From Sphaerobacteraceae bacterium (GTDB taxonomy: Bacteria > Chloroflexota > Chloroflexia > Thermomicrobiales > UBA6265), in contig JADDPH010000128.1 in NCBI GenBank assembly GCA_016781925.1, forward strand, positions 1 to 32,310: a DNA stretch of 32,310 nt. The letters are read 5' to 3'. Position numbers and translations under genes: made by a program. Under the pieces are notes generated by a model that had not been told where the DNA came from, made no database searches, and saw only the letters and a program-made list of their open reading frames with translations. Below, piece by piece: positions 10,954 to 21,471 of the stretch. Each line of letters begins with the position of its first letter. The stretch's first letter is position 1.

Positions 10954-12102
10954 TCACCGTTCACGTTTATAGAATGGTGTCTTGACCTGAATGGCCCGGA
11001 CGGGCCGGTCCCGGATCAGTATCTCTAACGGGCGACCCACCCCCGCCACCTCTCGATCGACCAGGGCCAAACCGATGTTCTCGCCGAGCGTCGGAGAAAC
11101 CGCCCCACTGGTGACGTGGCCAACCGGCTCACCGTCCACCATCACCGGGTAGTGGGCCCGGGGCGCCCCGCCTCGCTCCACGGTCTTGAAGCCGACGGTT
11201 CGCCGGGGTGGTCCCGACTCCTTCATCGCCGCGATCGCATCACGCCCGACAAAGTCACCCTTGTTGAGTTTTACCGCCCAGCCAAGTCCCGCTTCCAGTG
11301 GCCCGATGTCGTCCGCGAGCTCGTTCCCATACAGCGGCATCCGAGCCTCAAGGCGCAGCGTATCTCGCGCTCCGAGACCGATCGGTTGCAGTCCGTGCTC
11401 CGCTCCCGTTGCCATCAGCCCATCCCAGAGCGCTGGCGCGTCCTCGTTGGCGACGTAGAACTCGAACCCGTCCTCGCCGGTGTAGCCCGTGCGGGCGATC
11501 CGCGCCTTGACGCCCGCTACGAGTCCCTCGCGCCAACTGAACGGCTCGATAGAGGCCAGATCGGCGTCCGTAATCGACATCACGATTCGTTCCGCCAACG
11601 GCCCCTGGATCGCCACCATGCCGGTCCCAGCGCAGACATCCTGGATCTCAACATCGGCATCGGGTCGCTTGGCCCGCTGCTCCACGATCCAGCCAACGTC
11701 CTTCGCCGTATTTGACGCGTTGACCACCACCATGAATCCGGATCCATCCGGCTCGCGGTAGACGATGATGTCGTCGATGACGCCACCCCGCTCATTCGGG
11801 AGCAGGGAGTATTGCGCCTGCCCGGGCTGGAGTGCCGCAACATCATTCGTGGTAATTGCTTGGAGAAACGGCACGGCGTCCGGCCCAGCAACCTGGACCT
11901 GGCCCATGTGGCCGAGATCGAACAAACCGGCGGCTGACCGTACGGCGCGATGCTCTTGCAGGATCCCCGTGTACTGCACCGGCATGGACCACCCAGCGAA
12001 GGGCACCATCCTCGCTCCCAGGGCAACATGGCGATCATGAAGGGCGGTCTGCCGAGGTGGCGGCTCGGCCGCAGGCGCGGACTGAGAATCGCGGTCGGAC
12101 AC
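10954..12102 (-). CDS. gcvT: Aminomethyltransferase (glycine cleavage T protein)
   Basis: GcvT moves the methylene group from aminomethyl-lipoyl-GcvH to tetrahydrofolate, giving 5,10-methylene-THF and ammonia. Recognisable stretches are HVALGARMVPFAGWSMPVQY, GLFDLGHMGQ, ITTNDVAALQPGQAQYSLL, the IARTGYTGEDGFEFYV segment, GLGARDTLRLEA and the C-terminal GHVTSGAVSPTLGENIGLA. I choose GTG 12102 (382 aa) because GGAGG lies 9 bases before it; the frame remains open for another 150 codons, but that part lies in the purF gene. The first ~20 residues are a low-complexity extension (SDRDSQSAPAAEPPP) before the conserved fold. A good promoter is present just upstream, so gcvT-gcvH-gcvPA can be expressed apart from the pur genes. 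Confidence 0.96.
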   Translation of the reverse strand: MSDRDSQSAPAAEPPPRQTALHDRHVALGARMVPFAGWSMPVQYTGILQEHRAVRSAAGLFDLGHMGQVQVAGPDAVPFLQAITTNDVAALQPGQAQYSLLPNERGGVIDDIIVYREPDGSGFMVVVNASNTAKDVGWIVEQRAKRPDADVEIQDVCAGTGMVAIQGPLAERIVMSITDADLASIEPFSWREGLVAGVKARIARTGYTGEDGFEFYVANEDAPALWDGLMATGAEHGLQPIGLGARDTLRLEARMPLYGNELADDIGPLEAGLGWAVKLNKGDFVGRDAIAAMKESGPPRRTVGFKTVERGGAPRAHYPVMVDGEPVGHVTSGAVSPTLGENIGLALVDREVAGVGRPLEILIRDRPVRAIQVKTPFYKRER

Positions 12103-12137
12103 GGTCAACAACCTCCGTCGAGCGGCATCACATGTGG

Positions 12138-12167
12138 ATTCTAGGAGTCCCGAAAAGACACCGTCAA
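12138..12167 (-). promoter_or_regulatory. Promoter of gcvT-gcvH-gcvPA
   Basis: On the minus strand TTGACG (12167-12162) and TAGAAT (12143-12138) are separated by 18 bases, both close to consensus. Transcription would start near 12130, leaving a leader of about 28 bases before the gcvT GTG. A 12-base perfect palindrome, CTGCCCGGGCAG (12174-12185), lies just upstream of the -35 box and could be a regulator site. The leader is too short for a glycine riboswitch. Confidence 0.65.
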
Positions 12168-12197
12168 GCGCCACTGCCCGGGCAGGTCGTGCGTCAC

Positions 12198-13598
12198 CTA
12201 CACCCGCTCGAGCAGCAGCTTGTCCAGTCCGAGCTGCATCGGCACGGGGTAGTTGCCGGTGAGACAGCCGGTGCAGAAGCCAGCTCGCGGCAAATCGATG
12301 GCCCTCAAGAGACCATCGAGCGAGAGATAACCGATGCTGTCTGCACCGATAAACTCCCCCACTTCTGGCACGCTCATCCGGGCTGCGATCAAGTCTTCGC
12401 GTCTCGCCAGATCCACCCCGAGATAGCAAGGCCACATCATTGGCGGCGCGTGCACCCGCATGTGGACTTCCGCAGCCCCCGCGCTGCGGAGCAGCTGCAC
12501 GATCGGCCGGCTGGTCGTGCCTCGTACGATGGTGTCGTCCACCAAGACAACTCGCTTGCACATCACGACCTCGGGCAGCGCGTTGAACTTTAGAGAAACG
12601 CCCGTGTCCCGGAGCCGCTGATCCGGCTGGATGAAGGTGCGGCCGATGTACCGGTTCTTAATCAACGCCTCCTGATAGGGAATCCCAGACGCATTGGCGT
12701 AGCCAATGGCCGCTGGGGTCGCCGAGTCTGGTAACCCCACCACCACGTCAGCGTCGACCGGCGCCTCCTGAGCCAACTCGGCGCCCATCCGCTGACGCAC
12801 CAGGTGAAGTCGCTTGCCCTGGATTAGGCTGTCCGGGCGGGCAAAGTAGATCAACTCGAAGAGGCACATCGCGTCGCGGCGGTTACCGGTGAAAGCGTGC
12901 GACCGGCAGCAGTCGGCGTCAATCTCGACGATCTCGCCGGGCTCAACTTCTCGCTCAAAGGACGCGCCGATGGTCATCAAGGCGCAACTCTCGGAGGCCA
13001 CGACCCAATGCTCCCCGAGCCGGCCCAAGCAGAGCGGTCGCACGCCGAGTGGATCACGAACGGCAAGCAGCCGGTCCCTTGTCAGGATCGCCAGACTGAA
13101 TGCACCACTCATGCGAGCCATCGCCCGCCGCGTCTTCTCGATGATGTCGCCTCCCGGGGCCGTGGCGATGAGGCGAGTGAGGACTTCGCTGTCAGTCGAG
13201 GTGCGAAAAACTTCTCCGCGCTGCTCTAAGTCGTCCCGCAGCGACAGCGCATTGGTCAGGTTTCCATTATGGGCGACGCATATCGGCCCGATGTTGCTCT
13301 GGGCGAGGATGGGGCCGGCGTTGCAAGCTCGATTGGAACCCGCCGTCGAATAGCGCGCGTGACCGACTGCCAGGTCACCGGTCAGATCTCGGAGATCCTC
13401 TTCGGCGAACGCCTGAGCGACGAGACCGAGACCCGTGCGGAGGGAGACCCGCACGCCGTCGGATGCGGCGATCCCGGCGCTCTCCTGCCCTCGATGCTGC
13501 AGCGCGTAGAGGCCGAAGAAGGTGAGTCGGGCGACATCTTCCCCTGGGGCGAAAATCCCGAAGACGCCGCACTCCTCGCGCGGCTTGTCATCCCACAT
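12198..13598 (-). CDS. purF: Amidophosphoribosyltransferase
   Basis: PurF makes 5-phosphoribosylamine from PRPP and glutamine, the committed step of purine synthesis. I start at ATG 13598, with GAGGG five bases before it; Cys10 (EECGVFG) then becomes the N-terminal nucleophile after removal of a nine-residue propeptide, as in Bacillus-type enzymes. The glutaminase motif LYALQHRGQESAGIA and the PRPP-binding VVLVDDTIVRGTTSRPIV are clear. Cysteines of the Bacillus-type Fe-S cluster are all visible: in MCLFELIYFARPDS, in MMWPCYLGVD, and the pair in FCTGCLTGNYP. A TTG four codons upstream is an alternative start. It is followed after 95 bases by gcvT and preceded, with a 42-base gap, by purL. The 466-residue length is normal. 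Confidence 0.97.
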   Translation of the reverse strand: MWDDKPREECGVFGIFAPGEDVARLTFFGLYALQHRGQESAGIAASDGVRVSLRTGLGLVAQAFAEEDLRDLTGDLAVGHARYSTAGSNRACNAGPILAQSNIGPICVAHNGNLTNALSLRDDLEQRGEVFRTSTDSEVLTRLIATAPGGDIIEKTRRAMARMSGAFSLAILTRDRLLAVRDPLGVRPLCLGRLGEHWVVASESCALMTIGASFEREVEPGEIVEIDADCCRSHAFTGNRRDAMCLFELIYFARPDSLIQGKRLHLVRQRMGAELAQEAPVDADVVVGLPDSATPAAIGYANASGIPYQEALIKNRYIGRTFIQPDQRLRDTGVSLKFNALPEVVMCKRVVLVDDTIVRGTTSRPIVQLLRSAGAAEVHMRVHAPPMMWPCYLGVDLARREDLIAARMSVPEVGEFIGADSIGYLSLDGLLRAIDLPRAGFCTGCLTGNYPVPMQLGLDKLLLERV

Positions 13599-13640
13599 CA
13601 CGGCCCTCAACCAGCCCAGTGTCGATAATTATGACGACTC

Positions 13641-15890
13641 TCAGTCTACCACGGGTTGGTGTCCGTTCAGTGGATCCGGCGTGTCAAGCCCAGAGGCGTA
13701 CGCCGCCGCCAGCTCGGCAATCTCCACGTCGATCTCGCCGCTGGCGACAAATCGCGATCCACCGGCCCGTCCCAGACGGGTACTGGTAACACCCGCCCCC
13801 ACAGCCGACGCGATCAACGCCTCAACGTGCTCCTCCGGGCCTGCGACCACGATTCGCCCCGGCGCCTCCCCGAACCACGCCTCGTCAACTCGACCGCTTG
13901 CCCCGCCCGGCACCTCGGCCTCCATCGTCATGCCGACCCCCGAGGCGATGGCCATCTCGGCCAGTGCCACGGCCAAGCCGCCTAAGCCACAATCGTGGGC
14001 CGTGCGGATCTGCCCCGAGTCAATTGCCCTGCGAACCGTCCGCTGGACCGCCGCCTCCTGGTTCAGATCCAGGGGAGGAGGTGATCCAGCGACCAAACCG
14101 TGCCCGTGGGCAAGGTATTCCGAACCCCCAAGGGAGGGCGAAGCGCCGCCGATGAGGGCCACCACGTCCCCCTCACGCCAGGCAAGCGTTGCATGAATGC
14201 GGACATCATCCAGCACCCCGACCGCGCCTACCGTGGGCGTCGGCATGATGGGGCTCTCTCCAGTCTCGTTGTAGAGGCTCACGTTGCCGCTCACCACCGG
14301 CACATCGAGTGCTCGGCACGCCGAAGCCATGCCGGCCACCGCCTGGCTCAGTTGGAAATAACCCGCCGGCTTCTCCGGATTGCCAAAGTTGAGGCAATTG
14401 GTGATTGCCAATGGCCGTGCCCCGACGCAGACGAGGTTTCGCGTGGCCTCGGCGACCGCATGCGCCGCTCCGAGGTAGGGATCGAGGGAGCAGTATCGGG
14501 AGTTGCAGTCGATGGCCGCCGCGATGCCGCGTCCCGTCCCTCGCAGGCGAAGAACCGTGGCATCGCCGTCGCCAGGTGCCACCACCGTACCCGCCAGGAT
14601 CGTGTGATCGTACCGCTCGTAGATCGAGCGGCGACTCCCAATATTTGGCGACGAGAGGAGACTCAGAAGGCAACCGGCGACGGATTGGGGTCCGGCATTC
14701 GCCTCGCTCGGGAGGTCGGGGATGGTTGTCAGATCAAGATTGCGGCGGGCGATGGTGTCAATGGACTCAGCGCTCTCTCGGACGTAGGTTGGACAGCAAT
14801 CGGTGAAGAGATGAGCCGGAACTTCCGCCACGGTTGTTCCGTCGTCGCGAATACGCACCTGCCCGTCGTCGGTCACCGTACCGATCTCACTGGCGTGCAA
14901 CGACCAGCGCTCAACCACCGATCGGACCCGCGCCACCCCCTCTGGGCGAACCACGAGCAGCATCCGCTCCTGGCTCTCACTGAGCATCACCTCGTAAGCG
15001 CTCATGCCGGTCTCGCGGCGCGGCACCAGTGCGACATCGATTTCTGCCCCGACCCCGCCGCGGCTCGCGCACTCTACAACTGAGCTGGTCAACCCAGCCG
15101 CGCCGAGGTCCTGCATCGCGACCACGTCGTCGCCATGGAGCAACTCCAGACACGCCTCCAGCAGCAGCTTCTCCAGGAAGGGGTTGCCGACCTGAATGAC
15201 GCCCCGGTGGGAGGACGTCGGGTCATCGACAGAAGCGAAGGTTGCGCCGTGAAGCCCGTCACGCCCCGTGTCGGCCCCGACCAGCATGATCACGTTTCCC
15301 GGCCCGCTCGCCCTCGCTCGCATCAACGCGCCGTGCTCGGTCACCCCGATACACATCGCGTTGACAAGCGGGTTGCCATTGAACGACGGATCGAAGAAGA
15401 CTTCCCCGCCCACGGTCGGGATGCCTAGACAGTTACCGTAACCTCCGATCCCGCCCACCACGTTGTCGAGCAGGTACCGATTGCGAGGCACGTCGAGAGG
15501 GCCGAACCGCAAACTGTCGAGCAGCGCGATCGGGCGGGCCCCCATCGTGAAGATGTCCCGCACGATACCGCCCACCCCGGTCGCGGCCCCCTCGTAAGGT
15601 TCGACCGCGCTTGGGTGGTTGTGCGACTCAACCTTGAAGACGACGGCGAGCCCGTCACCGACATCGATCGCGCCGGCGTTCTCACCGGGCCCTTCCAAAA
15701 CCCACGGCGCCTCGGTCGGAAGCTGCGAGAGCAGCGGGCGGGAGTGCTTGTAGCCGCAGTGCTCGCTCCACATCGCGCCGAACATGCCGAGCTCAACCGG
15801 CGTCGGCTCCCGGCCGAGCACCTCGACCAGGAGCCGGTATTCGTCGTCGCTCAGCGCGACCTCCCGCCATTGCCCTGGTGCGATCGCCAC
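13641..15890 (-). CDS. purL: Phosphoribosylformylglycinamidine synthase subunit PurL
   Basis: Synthetase subunit of the three-part FGAM synthase, converting FGAR, ATP and ammonia (from PurQ) to FGAM. The 749-residue protein is the small PurL type that needs PurS and PurQ. Landmarks are MFGAMWSEHCGYKHSRP near residue 38, VVFKVESHNHPSAVEPYEGA with the ATP/Mg site, GGIVRDIFTMGARPIAL, and, in the second repeat, SRYCSLDPYLGAAHAV, NCLNFGNPEKP, PVVSGNVSLYNE and TAHDCGLGGLAVAL. The GTG start at 15890 is preceded by GGGGAGG. It follows purQ with a 28-base gap in the same operon, so subunit stoichiometry is likely set by the shared transcript. Confidence 0.98.
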   Translation of the reverse strand: MAIAPGQWREVALSDDEYRLLVEVLGREPTPVELGMFGAMWSEHCGYKHSRPLLSQLPTEAPWVLEGPGENAGAIDVGDGLAVVFKVESHNHPSAVEPYEGAATGVGGIVRDIFTMGARPIALLDSLRFGPLDVPRNRYLLDNVVGGIGGYGNCLGIPTVGGEVFFDPSFNGNPLVNAMCIGVTEHGALMRARASGPGNVIMLVGADTGRDGLHGATFASVDDPTSSHRGVIQVGNPFLEKLLLEACLELLHGDDVVAMQDLGAAGLTSSVVECASRGGVGAEIDVALVPRRETGMSAYEVMLSESQERMLLVVRPEGVARVRSVVERWSLHASEIGTVTDDGQVRIRDDGTTVAEVPAHLFTDCCPTYVRESAESIDTIARRNLDLTTIPDLPSEANAGPQSVAGCLLSLLSSPNIGSRRSIYERYDHTILAGTVVAPGDGDATVLRLRGTGRGIAAAIDCNSRYCSLDPYLGAAHAVAEATRNLVCVGARPLAITNCLNFGNPEKPAGYFQLSQAVAGMASACRALDVPVVSGNVSLYNETGESPIMPTPTVGAVGVLDDVRIHATLAWREGDVVALIGGASPSLGGSEYLAHGHGLVAGSPPPLDLNQEAAVQRTVRRAIDSGQIRTAHDCGLGGLAVALAEMAIASGVGMTMEAEVPGGASGRVDEAWFGEAPGRIVVAGPEEHVEALIASAVGAGVTSTRLGRAGGSRFVASGEIDVEIAELAAAYASGLDTPDPLNGHQPVVD

Positions 15891-15918
15891 CCGTGGGTCC
15901 TCCCCTATCGCCTCCGTC

Positions 15919-16623
15919 CTACGCGGGAACGGCGAGTATTTCCAGGGCTGACCGCAGGAGCCGGAGGCCGTCTTCGCCGCCGATCAAGGGATTCGTCGCC
16001 CGTTCCGGATGCGGCATCAAACCGACGACGTTCCCGCCCTCATTTGAGACGGCGGCAATCGACCGCGACGAACCATTGGCGTTGCTCGTTGGGGAGAGAT
16101 GTCCGTCTTGCTCGCAATAGCGCGCCACCACCTGCCCGTTTGCCTCCAGCCGGTCCAGCGTCTCCGGATCGGCAAAGTAGGCACCATCCCCATGAGCGAC
16201 CGGCAGGCGAAGAACCTCGCCCGGTCGGACGTTGCTTAGCCAGGCATTGCCGTGCCTTTCGAATCGGATGTGGGTCCAGTGGCAGTGAAATCGAAGCGTC
16301 CGGTTGCGTAGAAGAGCACCCGGCAGCAGATGAGCTTCGGTGAGAATTTGAAAGCCGTTGCAAATGCCCAGCACCGGCCCACCCCGCGCCGCAAAGGAGC
16401 GAACTTCCGTCATCACGGGCGCAAAGCGGGCAATGGCGCCGCAGCGAAGATGATCGCCATAGGAGAACCCGCCGGGCAGCACCACCGCGGCAACCCCATC
16501 CAGAGTCGTCTCCCGGTGATCCATCAGGCGCGCGTCCACCCCCACCTCATCCCTCAGCGCGGAGAGGGCGTCCTGGTCCCCGTTGCTGCCGGGGAAGGAG
16601 ATGACGGCGACCCAACTCCTCAT
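15919..16623 (-). CDS. purQ: Phosphoribosylformylglycinamidine synthase, glutaminase subunit PurQ
   Basis: A class-I glutamine amidotransferase (234 aa) that supplies ammonia to PurL. The nucleophile is Cys88 in GICNGFQIL, and the catalytic His and Glu lie in GLMPHPERA near 208-216. VAVISFPGSNGDQD at the N-terminus and LPGGFSYGDHLRCGAIA near 49-65 are typical of PurQ. ATG 16623 overlaps the stop of purS (ATGA), showing translational coupling of two subunits of one complex. Slightly longer than the shortest homologues owing to a loop around residues 165-195. Confidence 0.98.
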   Translation of the reverse strand: MRSWVAVISFPGSNGDQDALSALRDEVGVDARLMDHRETTLDGVAAVVLPGGFSYGDHLRCGAIARFAPVMTEVRSFAARGGPVLGICNGFQILTEAHLLPGALLRNRTLRFHCHWTHIRFERHGNAWLSNVRPGEVLRLPVAHGDGAYFADPETLDRLEANGQVVARYCEQDGHLSPTSNANGSSRSIAAVSNEGGNVVGLMPHPERATNPLIGGEDGLRLLRSALEILAVPA

Positions 16624-16952
16624 CGTGCACCGCCAGAAGGACCAGTCCCGCTCGCCTCACCTTCCACAATCGTGATGGCGTAGGTCTGGATCACGGGGTT
16701 CGCGAGTAACTGGTCGCACATGGAGGTGACAGAACGCTCGGCCTCGCCGATGTCCGGCGCCTCCACGACGAGTTGGATGAAGCGCCCCGCCCGGACATCG
16801 TCCACTCCGAATCCGAGCGAGCGCAGCCCCCCCCGAATCGTCTCACCTTCCGGGTCATTCACGCCCGGCTTCGGCGTCACGACAACGTCGGCCAGCCATC
16901 GACGCGTGCCCGAGGCCGTGCCGTTGGCCTCGCCACACGATGTCCCATTCAA
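16620..16952 (-). CDS. purS: Phosphoribosylformylglycinamidine synthase subunit PurS
   Basis: The small subunit that bridges PurL and PurQ. Family features are ADVVVTPKPGVNDPEGETI, LRSLGFGVDDVRAGRFIQL and CDQLLANPVIQTYAITI. No ATG or GTG is available in frame near the conserved start; the best candidate is TTG 16952, overlapping the purC stop (TTGA) with GGAGG about ten bases upstream. This adds about 20 residues before the conserved fold (MNGTSCGEANGTASGTRRWL), making 110 residues instead of the usual 80-85. Either the extension is real or translation starts at a rarer codon such as CTG. The tight overlaps with purC and purQ support coupled translation. Confidence 0.93.
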   Translation of the reverse strand: MNGTSCGEANGTASGTRRWLADVVVTPKPGVNDPEGETIRGGLRSLGFGVDDVRAGRFIQLVVEAPDIGEAERSVTSMCDQLLANPVIQTYAITIVEGEASGTGPSGGAR

Positions 16953-17857
16953 CAGTCCATCACCTCCGCCGGCAACGGCGACCCGGTGAGTCGCTCGTAC
17001 GCCTCCAGATACCGTGCTCGGGTGCCCTCGACGACCTCTTGAGGCAGATCAGGCCCCGGCGGCTGGCGATCCCACCCGCTTGCCACCAGCCAGTCTCGGA
17101 CAAATTGCTTGTCGAAGCTCGGCGGGTCCTGGCCTGCCTCGGAGGAGGTCGCATCCCAGAACCGCGAACTGTCAGGGGTAAGCAACTCGTCGATCAGCAC
17201 CAGGTTCCCATCAACGATCCCAAACTCAAACTTGGTATCTGCGAGGATGATGCCTCGCTGCAGAGCAAGATCGGACGCGACGTTGAAGATGTCACGGCTC
17301 GCCTCCTCCAGGCGCGCTGCCAACGCCGGCCCAACCAAAGCCCGTAGATCGGCAAGGGTGATATTGACGTCGTGGCCTTCATCATTCTTGGCTGCCGGGG
17401 TGAAGATCGGCGCGGACAGCCGACTGCCCTGGCTCAATCCGTCCGGAAGGACTTCTCCGGCAACTTGGCCGGACCGCCGGTACTCCTCCCAGGCAGACCC
17501 AGCCAGATAGGCACGGACGACGCACTCAATGTCGATCCGCTCCGCCTTGTGGACGATCATCGATCGTCCCGCCAGTAGCTTTGTATGAGGCAAGAGTTCG
17601 GCCGGGAAAAGTGAGACATCCGCCGTGATCAAGTGATTGGAGATCAAGCCTCGCGTCAGATCGAACCAGAAGCGCGAAAGCTGCGTTAGCACAACCCCCT
17701 TCCCTGGAATCAACGTCGGGAGGACCACGTCAAAGGCCGACAATCGGTCGGTCGCAACCATCAAGAGCCGATCGCCGAGGTCGTAGGTATCACGAACCTT
17801 TCCACGCCGAAACAGGAGCAGACCCGATAAATCAATCGACGCGCTGCCCGCCGTCAT
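16949..17857 (-). CDS. purC: Phosphoribosylaminoimidazole-succinocarboxamide synthase
   Basis: PurC (SAICAR synthetase) joins aspartate to CAIR with ATP. The 302-residue length fits the longer version of the family. Visible are FRRGKVRDTYDLGDRLLMVATDR (ATP-binding start), SAFDVVLPTLIPGKG, KAERIDIECVVRAYLAGSAW near 104-123, the DTKFEFGI segment and LIDELLTPDSSRFWDA. ATG 17857 overlaps the purB stop (ATGA); its own stop overlaps the purS start. PurB, the next enzyme in the pathway, is encoded immediately upstream. Confidence 0.98.
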   Translation of the reverse strand: MTAGSASIDLSGLLLFRRGKVRDTYDLGDRLLMVATDRLSAFDVVLPTLIPGKGVVLTQLSRFWFDLTRGLISNHLITADVSLFPAELLPHTKLLAGRSMIVHKAERIDIECVVRAYLAGSAWEEYRRSGQVAGEVLPDGLSQGSRLSAPIFTPAAKNDEGHDVNITLADLRALVGPALAARLEEASRDIFNVASDLALQRGIILADTKFEFGIVDGNLVLIDELLTPDSSRFWDATSSEAGQDPPSFDKQFVRDWLVASGWDRQPPGPDLPQEVVEGTRARYLEAYERLTGSPLPAEVMDC

Positions 17858-19194
17858 GAACTGGCCATCGCGGTGGCCCCAGCACCACTCTCCGGCGAAC
17901 GAGCGACAAGTCCCATGCGAGCGAAGATGGCGTCCACGTAGCGAAGCTGGCGGAAAGGATCAAATAGGGCGTCAAGAGCGTCCGGCTCTAGCAAACGTGC
18001 CACTGTAGGATCGTCTCGAAGCGCGTCCCGGAACCGCCTTCCGCCGTCCCAAGCAGCAAGGGCGTACCCCTGCACCAGTTTGTACGCCGCCTGTCGGTCC
18101 ATACCCGCGTCGACCAGGGCCAGCAGCACCTCCTGGGAGAAGATCAACCCTCCTGTGAGTTCAAGATTCGCTCGCATGCGCTCCGGGTAGACCACGAGGT
18201 GCTCTACCAGGTTCGCCACGAGGTCAAGCAGGTAGTCGAGCACGATACAGGCGTCCGGAAAGATGACCCGCTCCGTTGAGCTGTGACTGATATCCCGCTC
18301 GTGCCAGAGGGCAACATTCTCCAACGCCGTTACCGCGTAGCCGCGCAGCAGCCGCGCCAGGCCGGACGCCCGCTCCGACTCGTGCGGGTTGCGTTTATGC
18401 GGCATGGCCGAAGATCCTTGGTTGCCCGCCGCAAACGCCTCCTCGACCTCCCTCACCTCTGTCCGCTGAAGATGCCGAACCTCGACCGCCACCTTCTCGA
18501 GGCTCGCGGCAATCCCAGCGAGCACGTTGAGAAAGAAGGCATGCCGGTCTCGCTGCAACACCTGCGTGGACGCCGGCGCCGCGGTAAGACCCAATGCCGC
18601 GCACACCTCGTCCTCTAGGTCGGGTGGCACGTGAGCGTGGGTGCCAACCGCCCCGGAGATCTTGCCAACGGACATCTGTTCGCGAGCCAGGTCCAGCCGG
18701 GCGCGGTGCCGCCGTAGCTCGTCGTACCAGACCGCGAGCTTGAGACCAAACGTGGTCGGCTCGGCATGAATGCCGTGAGTCCGCCCGATCGTCAGCGTCT
18801 CCTTGTGCGCTACCGCTTGGCGGCCGATCACGTCCGTCAGGCGCTCAAGACCTGTGGCAAGGTGATCCCCGGCTTCCCGGACCTGAAGAGCAAGGGCAGT
18901 ATCGACGACATCCGAGCTCGTGAGACCGAGGTGGATGAACCGAGCCGCATCGCCAACGCTCTCCCCGGTGGCCCGGAGAAATGCGATGACGTCGTGGTCG
19001 GTTTCCCGCTCGATTTGACGCATCCGCTCAAGATCGCGCCTAGCCGCCCGGATGGCCTCCATGGCCCAATCCGGAATTCGCCCTCGGCGATGCCACGCCT
19101 CGCACACGGCGATCTCGACCATTAGCCAGGTCTCGACCTTATGCTCCTCGCTCCAGATTCGCCCCATCTCGGGACGCGTATATCGACCAATCAT
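17854..19194 (-). CDS. purB: Adenylosuccinate lyase
   Basis: PurB releases fumarate in two steps of purine synthesis, from SAICAR and from adenylosuccinate. I start at ATG 19194 (MIGRYTRPEMGRIWSEEHK), where the family begins, giving 446 residues; the open frame extends 45 codons more, but across the promoter. Family signatures are HLGLTSSDVVDTALALQ, IGRTHGIHAEPTTFGLK and GSSAMPHKRNPHESER, with the catalytic serine in the mobile loop. It heads the purB-C-S-Q-L-F cluster; with purL and purF gaps below 50 bases, one transcript is likely. The divergent neighbour is the glmS ribozyme/glmS unit. Confidence 0.97.
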   Translation of the reverse strand: MIGRYTRPEMGRIWSEEHKVETWLMVEIAVCEAWHRRGRIPDWAMEAIRAARRDLERMRQIERETDHDVIAFLRATGESVGDAARFIHLGLTSSDVVDTALALQVREAGDHLATGLERLTDVIGRQAVAHKETLTIGRTHGIHAEPTTFGLKLAVWYDELRRHRARLDLAREQMSVGKISGAVGTHAHVPPDLEDEVCAALGLTAAPASTQVLQRDRHAFFLNVLAGIAASLEKVAVEVRHLQRTEVREVEEAFAAGNQGSSAMPHKRNPHESERASGLARLLRGYAVTALENVALWHERDISHSSTERVIFPDACIVLDYLLDLVANLVEHLVVYPERMRANLELTGGLIFSQEVLLALVDAGMDRQAAYKLVQGYALAAWDGGRRFRDALRDDPTVARLLEPDALDALFDPFRQLRYVDAIFARMGLVARSPESGAGATAMASS

Positions 19195-19244
19195 CGGGAT
19201 CGCCTGGGATCGGTAGAGGACCACACGAACTTCATCATGGCCCG

Positions 19245-19250
19245 AGTATA
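19245..19250 (-). promoter_or_regulatory. -10 element of probable purB operon promoter
   Basis: On the minus strand TATACT lies about 50 bases before the purB ATG, so the leader would be about 43 bases. The sequence 17 bases upstream does not resemble a -35 box, so the promoter may need an activator. CTTGAG (19306-19311) and CTCAAG (19325-19330) form an inverted repeat between the divergent genes and are a candidate operator. Confidence 0.5.
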
Positions 19251-19355
19251 GCCCGAGGTAGTTGCCACTGCCGCCGCCAGTCGTTAGACTGAACGAACGG
19301 ACGGACTTGAGGACCGGTCGGGAACTCAAGGGAGTATGAGGACGAAGTTCACTCC

Positions 19356-19498
19356 AGCGCCAGGACTCGCAAGGAGGTGCGAGTCGACGAGGTGGAAGCC
19401 GATCGAACTATTCGGCGGATGGCTTCCCGGCGGGCACAGTCGTGATGACCGGTACAAACCGGCGGGGTGACCCGCCGACAATCCCCGGCCAAGGTGCC
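19356..19498 (+). ncRNA. glmS self-cleaving ribozyme (GlcN6P-dependent)
   Basis: The sequence follows the glmS ribozyme layout. A19356-G19357 forms the predicted cleavage site in AGCGCCAGGACT. P1 is a perfect 8-bp hairpin, GACTCGCA (19364-19371) with TGCGAGTC (19378-19385). The invariant core GACGAGG follows at 19386-19392, then ATCGAA and TTCGGCGGATGG. P3 is closed by GGCAC (19433-19437) with GTGCC (19494-19498). Near the 3' end GACCGGTACAAACC and a 7-bp GTGA-capped hairpin (19460-19477) match the P4 region. In the family, glucosamine-6-phosphate is the cofactor for cleavage, which lowers glmS expression. The gene downstream is glmS, as expected. Extent of the 3' end is approximate. Confidence 0.92.
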
Positions 19499-19701
19499 AA
19501 CACCCCCTTGATCCTCCTCAACCAACCGACGATGACCGTCCCCGGTGTTCGGCACGTTCATCTTGGCCACCGCGTCCCAACCCCGGCCCCCCGCCGGTAG
19601 GGCGGTGCTGGCCGCGGCGTTGTGCGTGCCGATCTTCCCGCGACACGGCGGTGCCCCCTGGGCCACCGTGGTCGTCACCATCCCTGGAGGATCAAGTCCC
19701 C
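19499..19701 (+). other. Long spacer between ribozyme and glmS start
   Basis: About 200 bases without a convincing gene. It contains the glmS ribosome binding site (GGAGG, 19686-19690, 11 bases before the ATG). An out-of-frame ATG at 19545 opens a frame that overruns the glmS start and does not look protein-like. No second terminator or riboswitch is recognised. Confidence 0.4.
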
Positions 19702-21471
19702 ATGTGCGGCATCTTCGGCTACGTCGGCGAAGAACGCGAGATCGGGAGCGAGGTCTTAGAGGCCTTGCGGACCCTCGAATACCGTGGCTACGACTCCTGG
19801 GGCGTCGCGGTTGGCGTGGACGGCCGGATCGGCGTCGAGAAGCGGACCGGCAAGATCGCCGGCGCGCACGTCGACTTTCCACCGTCTCCCATCGCCTTTG
19901 GGCACACCCGATGGGCCACCCACGGCGGCGTCACCCACGCCAACGCGCATCCCCATCTCGATTGCGACGGCCGTCTCGCCGTCATTCACAATGGCATCGT
20001 CGAGAATTTCCGCCCGCTCCGGGATAGCCTGTTGGCCCGCGGTCACCGTTTCGTATCCGAGACGGACAGTGAGGTCATTGCCCACCTCCTTGAGGACGCC
20101 CTGCCACAAGCTGACGGTGACCTTGCCGCCGCCCTCTCTGCGGTTGTTGGCCGCCTGGAGGGGCTCAACGCGGTGATCGCGATGGATGTCCGGAGCGGTA
20201 CCCTGGCGGCGGCGAAGAACGTGTCCCCGCTTGTGGTCGGTGAGGGTAACCGCGGGGCGTCCATCGCTTCGGACGGGCTTGCTCTTCAAGGCCACGCCGA
20301 TCGCGTGCTCTACCTGGAAGACCACCATCTGGTCCGGTTGAGCCCTGACGGCATCACCCTCTACGACCGGCGCTCAATGTCCGAGCTCTCAGCCGATTTT
20401 GCCCCGCTCGTCCTTCAGTCAGGCGAGACGGGGCTCGGTGCTTTTCCCCACTTTATGGCGAAGGAGATGGCCGAGCAGCCGGACGTGCTCGAACGGCTGG
20501 TCCGGGACGCGACGGGTCAAATCGAGGATCTTGCCGCTGCCATCCGCGATTCCTACGGAGCGTTCCTTGTTGGGTGCGGCACCGCGTCCTACGCCGCCCT
20601 GACCGGCGCGTATCTCTTCAGCCGGATCGCCGCCAGGCACGTGAACTTTACGGTCGGATCCGAGTTCAAGTATCACGAGCACTTCCTGACCGACAGCAGC
20701 CTGGTCATTGCGCTTTCCCAAAGTGGGGAGACGGTCGACATCATTGAGGCGATGCTGGCCGCGCGGCGGCGCGGCGCTCGGCTTGGCGCGCTGGTCAACG
20801 TCCCTCGCTCGACGCTCGACCGGATGGTCGATCTCCGGGTGCACCTGGGGGCTGGCCCCGAGCAGTGTGTCCTGTCCACGAAGGCGTACACCGCCAAAGT
20901 GGCCGTGCTCCTCATGACCGCTCACGCGCTAGCCGGCTCCCCGGAGAAGGGCAAGGAGGAAGTCCTCGCGGCCGCCGCCGGGCTCCAGGAGATGCTGTCA
21001 GATGCGTGGGTCGCTCAGGTTCGGGAAGTGGCGCGGCGGATCCATCGCGAGGAGCATCTCTTCGTCATCGGGCGTGGTCTAGCCTTCCCGACGGCGCTTG
21101 AGGCCGCGCTGAAGATCAAGGAGGTCAGCTACATCCACGCCGAGGGGTTCGCCGGCGGGGAGTTGAAGCATGGGGTGATCGCCCTCGTCGCGCCCGGCAC
21201 GCCGTGCGTCGTCTATGCCCCATCCGATGAGACCCGGGCCGACATCCTTTCCGGGGCAATGGAACTGAAGAGCAGGGGCGGGTACATGATCGGGGTAGGC
21301 CCCGAGCCAGATCCCGTGTTCGATGTCCACCTGCCGACGCCGGATGTTGGTGATGCGGCGCCACTGGTCAATGCCCTGCCTGCGCAGATGCTGGGCTATC
21401 ACGCGGCGCTGCTTCGGGGCAATGATCCGGACAAGCCGCGCAATCTCGCGAAGAGTGTCACCGTCAAGTGA
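19702..21471 (+). CDS. glmS: Glutamine-fructose-6-phosphate aminotransferase (isomerizing)
   Basis: GlmS makes glucosamine-6-phosphate, the first dedicated precursor of peptidoglycan and other amino sugars. ATG 19702 puts the catalytic Cys at position 2 (MCGIFGYVG), as required. The N-terminal glutaminase shows LEYRGYDSWGVA, the GHTRWATHGGVTHANAHPH segment, VIHNGIVENFRPLR and ETDSEVIAHL. The C-terminal double SIS isomerase shows VGCGTASYAALTGAYLF, LSQSGETVDIIEAM, GRGLAFPTALEAALKIKE and the end PRNLAKSVTVK. 589 residues, slightly short of the usual ~605. The deaminated product feeds back on the ribozyme just upstream. tatD, rdgB and two more genes follow on the same strand with almost no gaps, so they may share its transcript and thus its ribozyme control. 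Confidence 0.98.
   Translation: MCGIFGYVGEEREIGSEVLEALRTLEYRGYDSWGVAVGVDGRIGVEKRTGKIAGAHVDFPPSPIAFGHTRWATHGGVTHANAHPHLDCDGRLAVIHNGIVENFRPLRDSLLARGHRFVSETDSEVIAHLLEDALPQADGDLAAALSAVVGRLEGLNAVIAMDVRSGTLAAAKNVSPLVVGEGNRGASIASDGLALQGHADRVLYLEDHHLVRLSPDGITLYDRRSMSELSADFAPLVLQSGETGLGAFPHFMAKEMAEQPDVLERLVRDATGQIEDLAAAIRDSYGAFLVGCGTASYAALTGAYLFSRIAARHVNFTVGSEFKYHEHFLTDSSLVIALSQSGETVDIIEAMLAARRRGARLGALVNVPRSTLDRMVDLRVHLGAGPEQCVLSTKAYTAKVAVLLMTAHALAGSPEKGKEEVLAAAAGLQEMLSDAWVAQVREVARRIHREEHLFVIGRGLAFPTALEAALKIKEVSYIHAEGFAGGELKHGVIALVAPGTPCVVYAPSDETRADILSGAMELKSRGGYMIGVGPEPDPVFDVHLPTPDVGDAAPLVNALPAQMLGYHAALLRGNDPDKPRNLAKSVTVK

Follow-up and report, generated by a model that had tools for sequence, protein, structure and literature searches.

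Members of the glmS ribozyme family use glucosamine-6-phosphate (GlcN6P) as the cofactor for their own cleavage, and cleavage represses glmS. The class, as known from B. subtilis, T. tengcongensis and B. anthracis, shares with the locus described here its cleavage motif, its P1-P4 architecture, the GACGAGG sequence and a site before glmS. Translational riboswitches work through expression platforms built from Shine-Dalgarno (SD), anti-SD and anti-anti-SD tracts, and in Clostridioides difficile a ribozyme event within a c-di-GMP-controlled group I intron alters access to a ribosome-binding site.

A glmS ribozyme that is routine in its order

Within the window, by which we mean the entire 32,310-nucleotide stretch analysed, cmscan placed a match to the glmS model RF00234 on the forward strand at 19345-19501. 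The match spans the whole model (positions 1-167) and scores 85.0 bits against a gathering threshold of 37 (E = 2.1e-18); it is not a chance hit, and a whole-genome search found no further copy. The original prediction had assigned the class from the letters alone and named a covariance search with the Rfam glmS model as its check; the class assignment held and the search was significant. The parts of the element are as follows.

19345-19501, forward strand: glmS ribozyme (RF00234), 85.0 bits, with covariation in the order
Between 19356 and 19357, forward strand: predicted cleavage site, A/GCGCC, from the sequence and the Rfam alignment
19364-19385, forward strand: P1 hairpin of 8 bp, GACTCGCA (19364-19371) with TGCGAGTC (19378-19385), from the sequence, the Rfam alignment and covarying P1
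19372-19377, forward strand: P1 loop AGGAGG, from the sequence
19386-19392, forward strand: GACGAGG core, from the sequence, with P3 and P4 downstream

The cleavage motif, P1, the GACGAGG core, P3 and P4 all lie upstream of glmS where they had been predicted. The 3' end of the extent first proposed, 19356-19498, falls 3 nt short of the Rfam end at 19501. In an alignment of 32 Thermomicrobiales sequences GACGAGG is invariant, and 26 of the 39 predicted pairs vary on both sides with pairing kept. AGCGCC is present at the cleavage site in every full copy from the order (52 of 52). The score, the cleavage motif, the core, the covarying helices and the location in the glmS 5' UTR together make this a member of RF00234. 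The base that follows GACGAGG (19393 in the window) is U in 40 of the 52 Thermomicrobiales ribozymes, C in 8 and A, which is the Rfam consensus base, in 4.

A particular feature had been seen in the P1 loop, whose AGGAGG is the sequence of a ribosome-binding site. The sequence is indeed there. It is a common variant and nothing special, because GGAGG occurs in the P1 loop region of 28 of 53 genomes, the Rfam consensus at this loop is similar ('aggaaaA') and P1 shows no preference for pairing with the downstream tract of its own genome. We considered the loop as an SD decoy and rejected the idea, given the lack of any own-genome preference for the downstream tract and the frequency of the loop among relatives. 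More generally, own-versus-other tests gave no signal for pairing of the ribozyme body with the SD or with the anti-SD tract described below.

The suspected Chloroflexota lineage was confirmed by the relatives of GlmS, and the order is Thermomicrobiales: the nearest GlmS (95% identity) comes from a Thermomicrobiales MAG and the next matches from Thermomicrobiales or other Chloroflexota. Among the nearest GlmS proteins found beyond Chloroflexota (L077-L133; 43-54% identity), those of Patescibacteria predominate, such as Woesebacteria, Levybacteria and Peregrinibacteria. RF00234 is present, always as a single copy, in 54 of 61 Thermomicrobiales genomes, and in all 28 of those with completeness of 90% or more and contamination of no more than 5%. 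Among 400 sampled Chloroflexota genomes, 128 have a match (E<=0.001), 112 of them above the cut-off. The passages found of PMC2258182 and PMC3766115 contain no statement of Chloroflexota members of the class. It had been proposed that the present case extends or confirms the range of the class: the occurrence in Chloroflexota is real, and the extension is weak, for an element that is near-universal in Thermomicrobiales and common in the phylum is an ordinary occurrence for this group. The window ribozyme adds a further example to a familiar class and is unexceptional within Thermomicrobiales.

The regulatory unit and the standard mechanism

The ribozyme is followed by glmS and preceded by a predicted promoter.

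19702-21471, forward strand: glmS, glutamine--fructose-6-phosphate transaminase (isomerizing), 589 aa, TIGR01135 at 569 bits with a cut-off of 418 (NCBIfam)
19262-19290, forward strand: predicted sigma70-like glmS promoter, TTGCCA (19262-19267), 17-nt spacer and TAGACT (19285-19290), score 12.2
19297-19356, forward strand: predicted 5' leader of ~60 nt that would be lost on cleavage, its start set by the promoter

The ribozyme-to-glmS spacer is 200 nt in the window (ATG at 19702) and 79-237 nt among relatives that have glmS in reach. This glmS is the sole full-length GlmS copy of the window genome, where a search for second full copies returned only partial domain matches. The promoter score of 12.2 compares with 4.0 for the next-best site, and transcription is predicted from the promoter to start at ~19297. 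A sister species has an identical predicted promoter, and comparable promoters stand at a suitable distance in all 50 loci of relatives that have glmS in reach; a sigma70-like pattern is plain in nearly every locus. The promoter at 19262-19290 and the glmS start are the probable limits of the regulatory unit.

The genes divergent from glmS (10954-19329, reverse strand) are purB, purC, purQ, purL, a purF-like amidotransferase frame and gcvT; tatD, an XTP/dITP pyrophosphatase, a Mur-ligase-like gene and polX lie downstream of glmS. The longest purB frame (17854-19329, reverse strand), with a TTG start at 19329, would run into the glmS promoter and leader. Its match to the PurB model begins at residue 46, so the true purB start is probably near 19194.

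We assign a probability of about 0.93 to a genuine glmS ribozyme in the glmS 5' leader that acts, through GlcN6P-triggered self-cleavage, as a negative feedback; GlcN6P dependence, cleavage and repression are here carried over from the family by analogy. GlcN6P that builds up would serve as cofactor, the RNA would cut itself between 19356 and 19357, the ~60-nt leader would be lost and GlmS synthesis would drop. The drop in expression may proceed through RNase J decay of the 5'-OH product, through an 11-bp helix between an anti-SD tract and the SD, possibly opposed by the leader, or through both. In B. subtilis the 5'-OH cleavage product is degraded by RNase J1 (PMC11780869). RNase J scores above the curated cut-off in 27 of 31 Thermomicrobiales genomes; it was not found in the window genome (82% complete), and the sister species has a fragment.

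Predicted pairing between leader, anti-SD tract and SD

Shortly after the ribozyme, the spacer holds an anti-SD tract, which we call the arm.

19505-19521, forward strand: anti-SD tract (arm) CCCTTGATCCTCCTCAA, pairing with the SD region through 19507-19517
19686-19696, forward strand: glmS SD region GGAGGATCAAG, exact complement of 19507-19517 over 11 bp

Arm nucleotides CTTGATCCTCC are the exact reverse complement of the SD-containing stretch. An 11-bp SD helix of this kind arises by chance with p 0.003 as an exact match in dinucleotide shuffles and 0.017 by duplex energy, and the helix is present in the minimum-energy fold whether or not the upstream sequence is included. The leader can also pair with the arm, TTGAGGA (19307-19313) with TCCTCAA (19515-19521) and TCAAGGG (19326-19332) with CCCTTGA (19505-19511). 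For the window alone this leader-arm pairing is not significant (p 0.20), and the SD helix is the only pairing that is. Opening the SD costs 14.0 kcal/mol without the leader and 7.0 with it, an effect that 4% of shuffled leaders equal.

We tentatively suggest, at somewhat less than even odds, that in Thermomicrobiales the ribozyme drives a cleavage-actuated translational switch in which the discarded leader is an SD mimic (an anti-anti-SD) and cutting locks translation. In the uncut RNA the leader would occupy the arm and leave the glmS SD free; after a GlcN6P-triggered cut the leader would be gone and the arm would close on the SD. Such a switch would extend the standard mechanism rather than compete with it, acting beside mRNA decay or instead of it. 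The SD-complementary tract that it needs is present, with the significant helix just described; the upstream competitor has p 0.0002-0.0004 in the order, against the insignificant value for the window alone. The uncut minimum-energy fold of the window still closes the SD helix despite the leader, and a kinetic, co-transcriptional effect would therefore be needed there.

A second reading, which we regard as a reasonable possibility short of probable, makes the pattern a statistical by-product of composition, since 5' ends and SDs are rich in purines and the spacers opposite them in pyrimidines; the 11-bp helix would then be incidental and only RNase J-type decay would matter. The order-wide comparison bears on both readings. 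In 50 genomes of 28 genera, each tract was paired with its own partners and with those of other genera, row, column and base-composition effects were removed, and values were averaged within genera. With fixed windows, the arm (the first 45 nt 3' of the ribozyme) preferred its own SD (p 0.0012) and the 91 nt upstream of the cleavage site preferred their own arm (p 0.005). The corresponding controls gave p 0.18-0.94 (mid-spacer with SD, coding sequence with SD, far-upstream with arm, upstream with mid-spacer, upstream with SD). With windows set by the promoters and scored by energy, the 5' end with the arm gave p 0.0004, the whole leader with the arm 0.0002 and the arm with the SD 0.0026, and controls again stayed flat at p 0.5-0.8 (pre-promoter with arm, 5' end with coding sequence, coding sequence with SD). 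Over its first 22 nt the predicted transcript is more like its own SD region than like those of other genera (p 0.0018), and neither the next 22 nt (p 0.49) nor the pre-promoter stretch (p 0.38) shows this. The composition correction and the six kinds of flat control stretch argue against a by-product of composition and favour the switch.

The signal is also confined in position. Sliding windows put the upstream part at -4 to +18 relative to the predicted transcription start and the arm at +10 to +45 after the ribozyme for both partners; leader stretch 20-41 with the arm gave p 0.04. The three versions of the leader test were the fixed, ungapped 91 nt given above, a promoter-based ungapped form (p 0.066) and the energy-based form (p 0.0004). 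Leader-arm and 5' end-arm pairing held in each half of the order on its own, in the 16 genera of the window's family and in the remaining 12 genera (p 0.0004-0.006); arm-SD pairing gave p 0.06 and 0.02, and 5' end-SD resemblance p 0.002 and 0.12. With the native leader, the SD became 2.0 kcal/mol cheaper to open; shuffled leaders gave 1.1 and swapped ones 0.8 (z -4.7 and -5.7). In this folding the ribozyme was replaced by an inert linker, and a linker of 30 gives z -4.6. Both the position of the signals and the eased opening, which persists with another linker, are consistent with the switch.

Changes on both sides within genera point the same way, as in these examples.

Genus g22: transcripts start with GTTCGGGAGGCGG in 7 of 7 species, with CCGCCT in every arm
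Genus g7: GAGGGAAACT and AGTTTTCCCTC (G007)
Genus g31: GACAGGG and CCCTGTC in three species, GATGGC and GCCATC in G060
Genus g4: GGTGAA..AACAGAGG and CCTCTGTTTTCACC in G004, GGATTCG and CGAATCC in G029
Genus g14 (G014): AGGCAAC at the 5' end, GTTGCCT in the spacer and GGGGCAAC in the SD region

Other results weigh against the switch, and some of them support a by-product. The hypothesis was formed post hoc on the same data, and the transcription starts used are predicted ones. Significance genome by genome is modest: in shuffles scored by duplex energy, leader-arm pairing reaches Fisher 0.0004 and arm-SD pairing only 0.09, and exact matches give 0.007 for arm-SD, 0.06 for 5' end-arm and 0.047 for 5' end-SD. 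Elsewhere in Chloroflexota (51 loci from 36 genera) the pattern was not clearly reproduced. There, fixed windows gave p 0.15 for arm-SD and 0.46 for upstream-arm; promoter-based windows gave 0.016 for arm-SD, 0.06 for leader-arm and 0.53 for 5' end-SD resemblance; and the SD-opening tests gave 0.06 and 0.28. Long leader-arm duplexes, moreover, would not separate immediately after the cut.

These long duplexes suggest a third reading, in which leader and arm form an outer stem around the ribozyme, stabilising it or else protecting the mRNA 5' end, and the overlap with the SD-pairing tract has no regulatory role. Leader-arm pairing is the strongest pairing signal of all, and in some relatives (G033, G007 and G041) the leader can pair with the arm over almost its full length. 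We nevertheless judge an outer stem unlikely, as it leaves unexplained why the arm matches its own SD and why the 5' end resembles it. A small upstream reading frame that would use the SD-like block at the 5' end of the transcript for ribosome binding is highly improbable and was rejected: in genus g22 GGGAGGCGG is followed by ATG at good spacing in most species and the window leader has GGGAGTATG, but G059 and G042 lack the ATG even though the g22 block is kept in 7 of 7 species, and most other genera, inspected by eye, have no start codon at a suitable distance, so that the start codon is not conserved where the motif is.

If the leader, arm and SD do function together in the cleavage-actuated switch, a self-cleaving riboswitch could regulate without a nuclease attacking the 5'-OH product. 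A natural self-cleaving riboswitch would then have a second output that does not depend on decay. A literature search that covered few subscription journals found no report of a cleavage-discarded anti-anti-SD for the glmS ribozyme.

RF00234 matches away from glmS

Outside the window, in a different Chloroflexota order to which G253 belongs, several genomes carry a pair of RF00234 matches: the first precedes glmS and the second precedes glnA (TIGR00653), the gene for type I glutamine synthetase. RF00234 lies directly upstream of glnA in families f49, f94, f96, f97, f98 and f101, and many genomes with a glnA-linked match also have a glmS-linked copy.

L205, 409-628, forward strand: glnA-linked RF00234
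L207, 1162-1379, reverse strand: glnA-linked RF00234
L217, 530-747, forward strand: glnA-linked RF00234
L256, 1501-1721, reverse strand: glnA-linked RF00234
L276, 1317-1521, reverse strand: glnA-linked RF00234
L215, L221, L258, L259, L261-L263, L267, L271-L273, L281, L292 and L293: weaker glnA-linked matches, below the cut-off

The best glnA-linked copy scores 47.7 bits (L205; cut-off 37) and many fall below the cut-off. Their cleavage-site strand reads AGCGGCUG or AGCGACUG, or AGCGUAUGG in f94; the glmS-linked copies there have AGCGCA or AGCGCC and, in one case, AGCGCG. Judged from these sequences, the glnA-linked copies are possibly a variant subclass. Our literature search found no paper on RF00234 ribozymes upstream of glnA; if confirmed, they would extend the class beyond glmS. 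In family f102, RF00234 (L243, 1501-1714, reverse strand, 47.4 bits; also L284) precedes a gene that motifs identify as neither glmS nor glnA, and the protein downstream in L284 has no NCBIfam match at E<=1e-20. A selenocysteine tRNA (RF01852, 71.5 bits; L256, 1836-1928, forward strand) lies near a glnA-linked ribozyme on the opposite strand.

Comparison with known systems

Against the glmS class as described, the window departs in three respects: it has U for the consensus A after GACGAGG, as does most of its order; its spacer is 200 nt long and forms an 11-bp helix with the glmS SD; and its leader belongs to a set that resembles the SD at the level of the order. The predicted arrangement is like that of translational riboswitches in that a single tract would pair exclusively with the SD or with an upstream competitor. 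Those riboswitches displace the competitor by ligand-induced refolding, whereas here self-cleavage would discard it. The C. difficile intron offers a parallel in that access to the ribosome-binding site would be altered by a ribozyme reaction in both cases, but there the event is splicing and here it would be cleavage, and the ribozymes and their ligands are unrelated.
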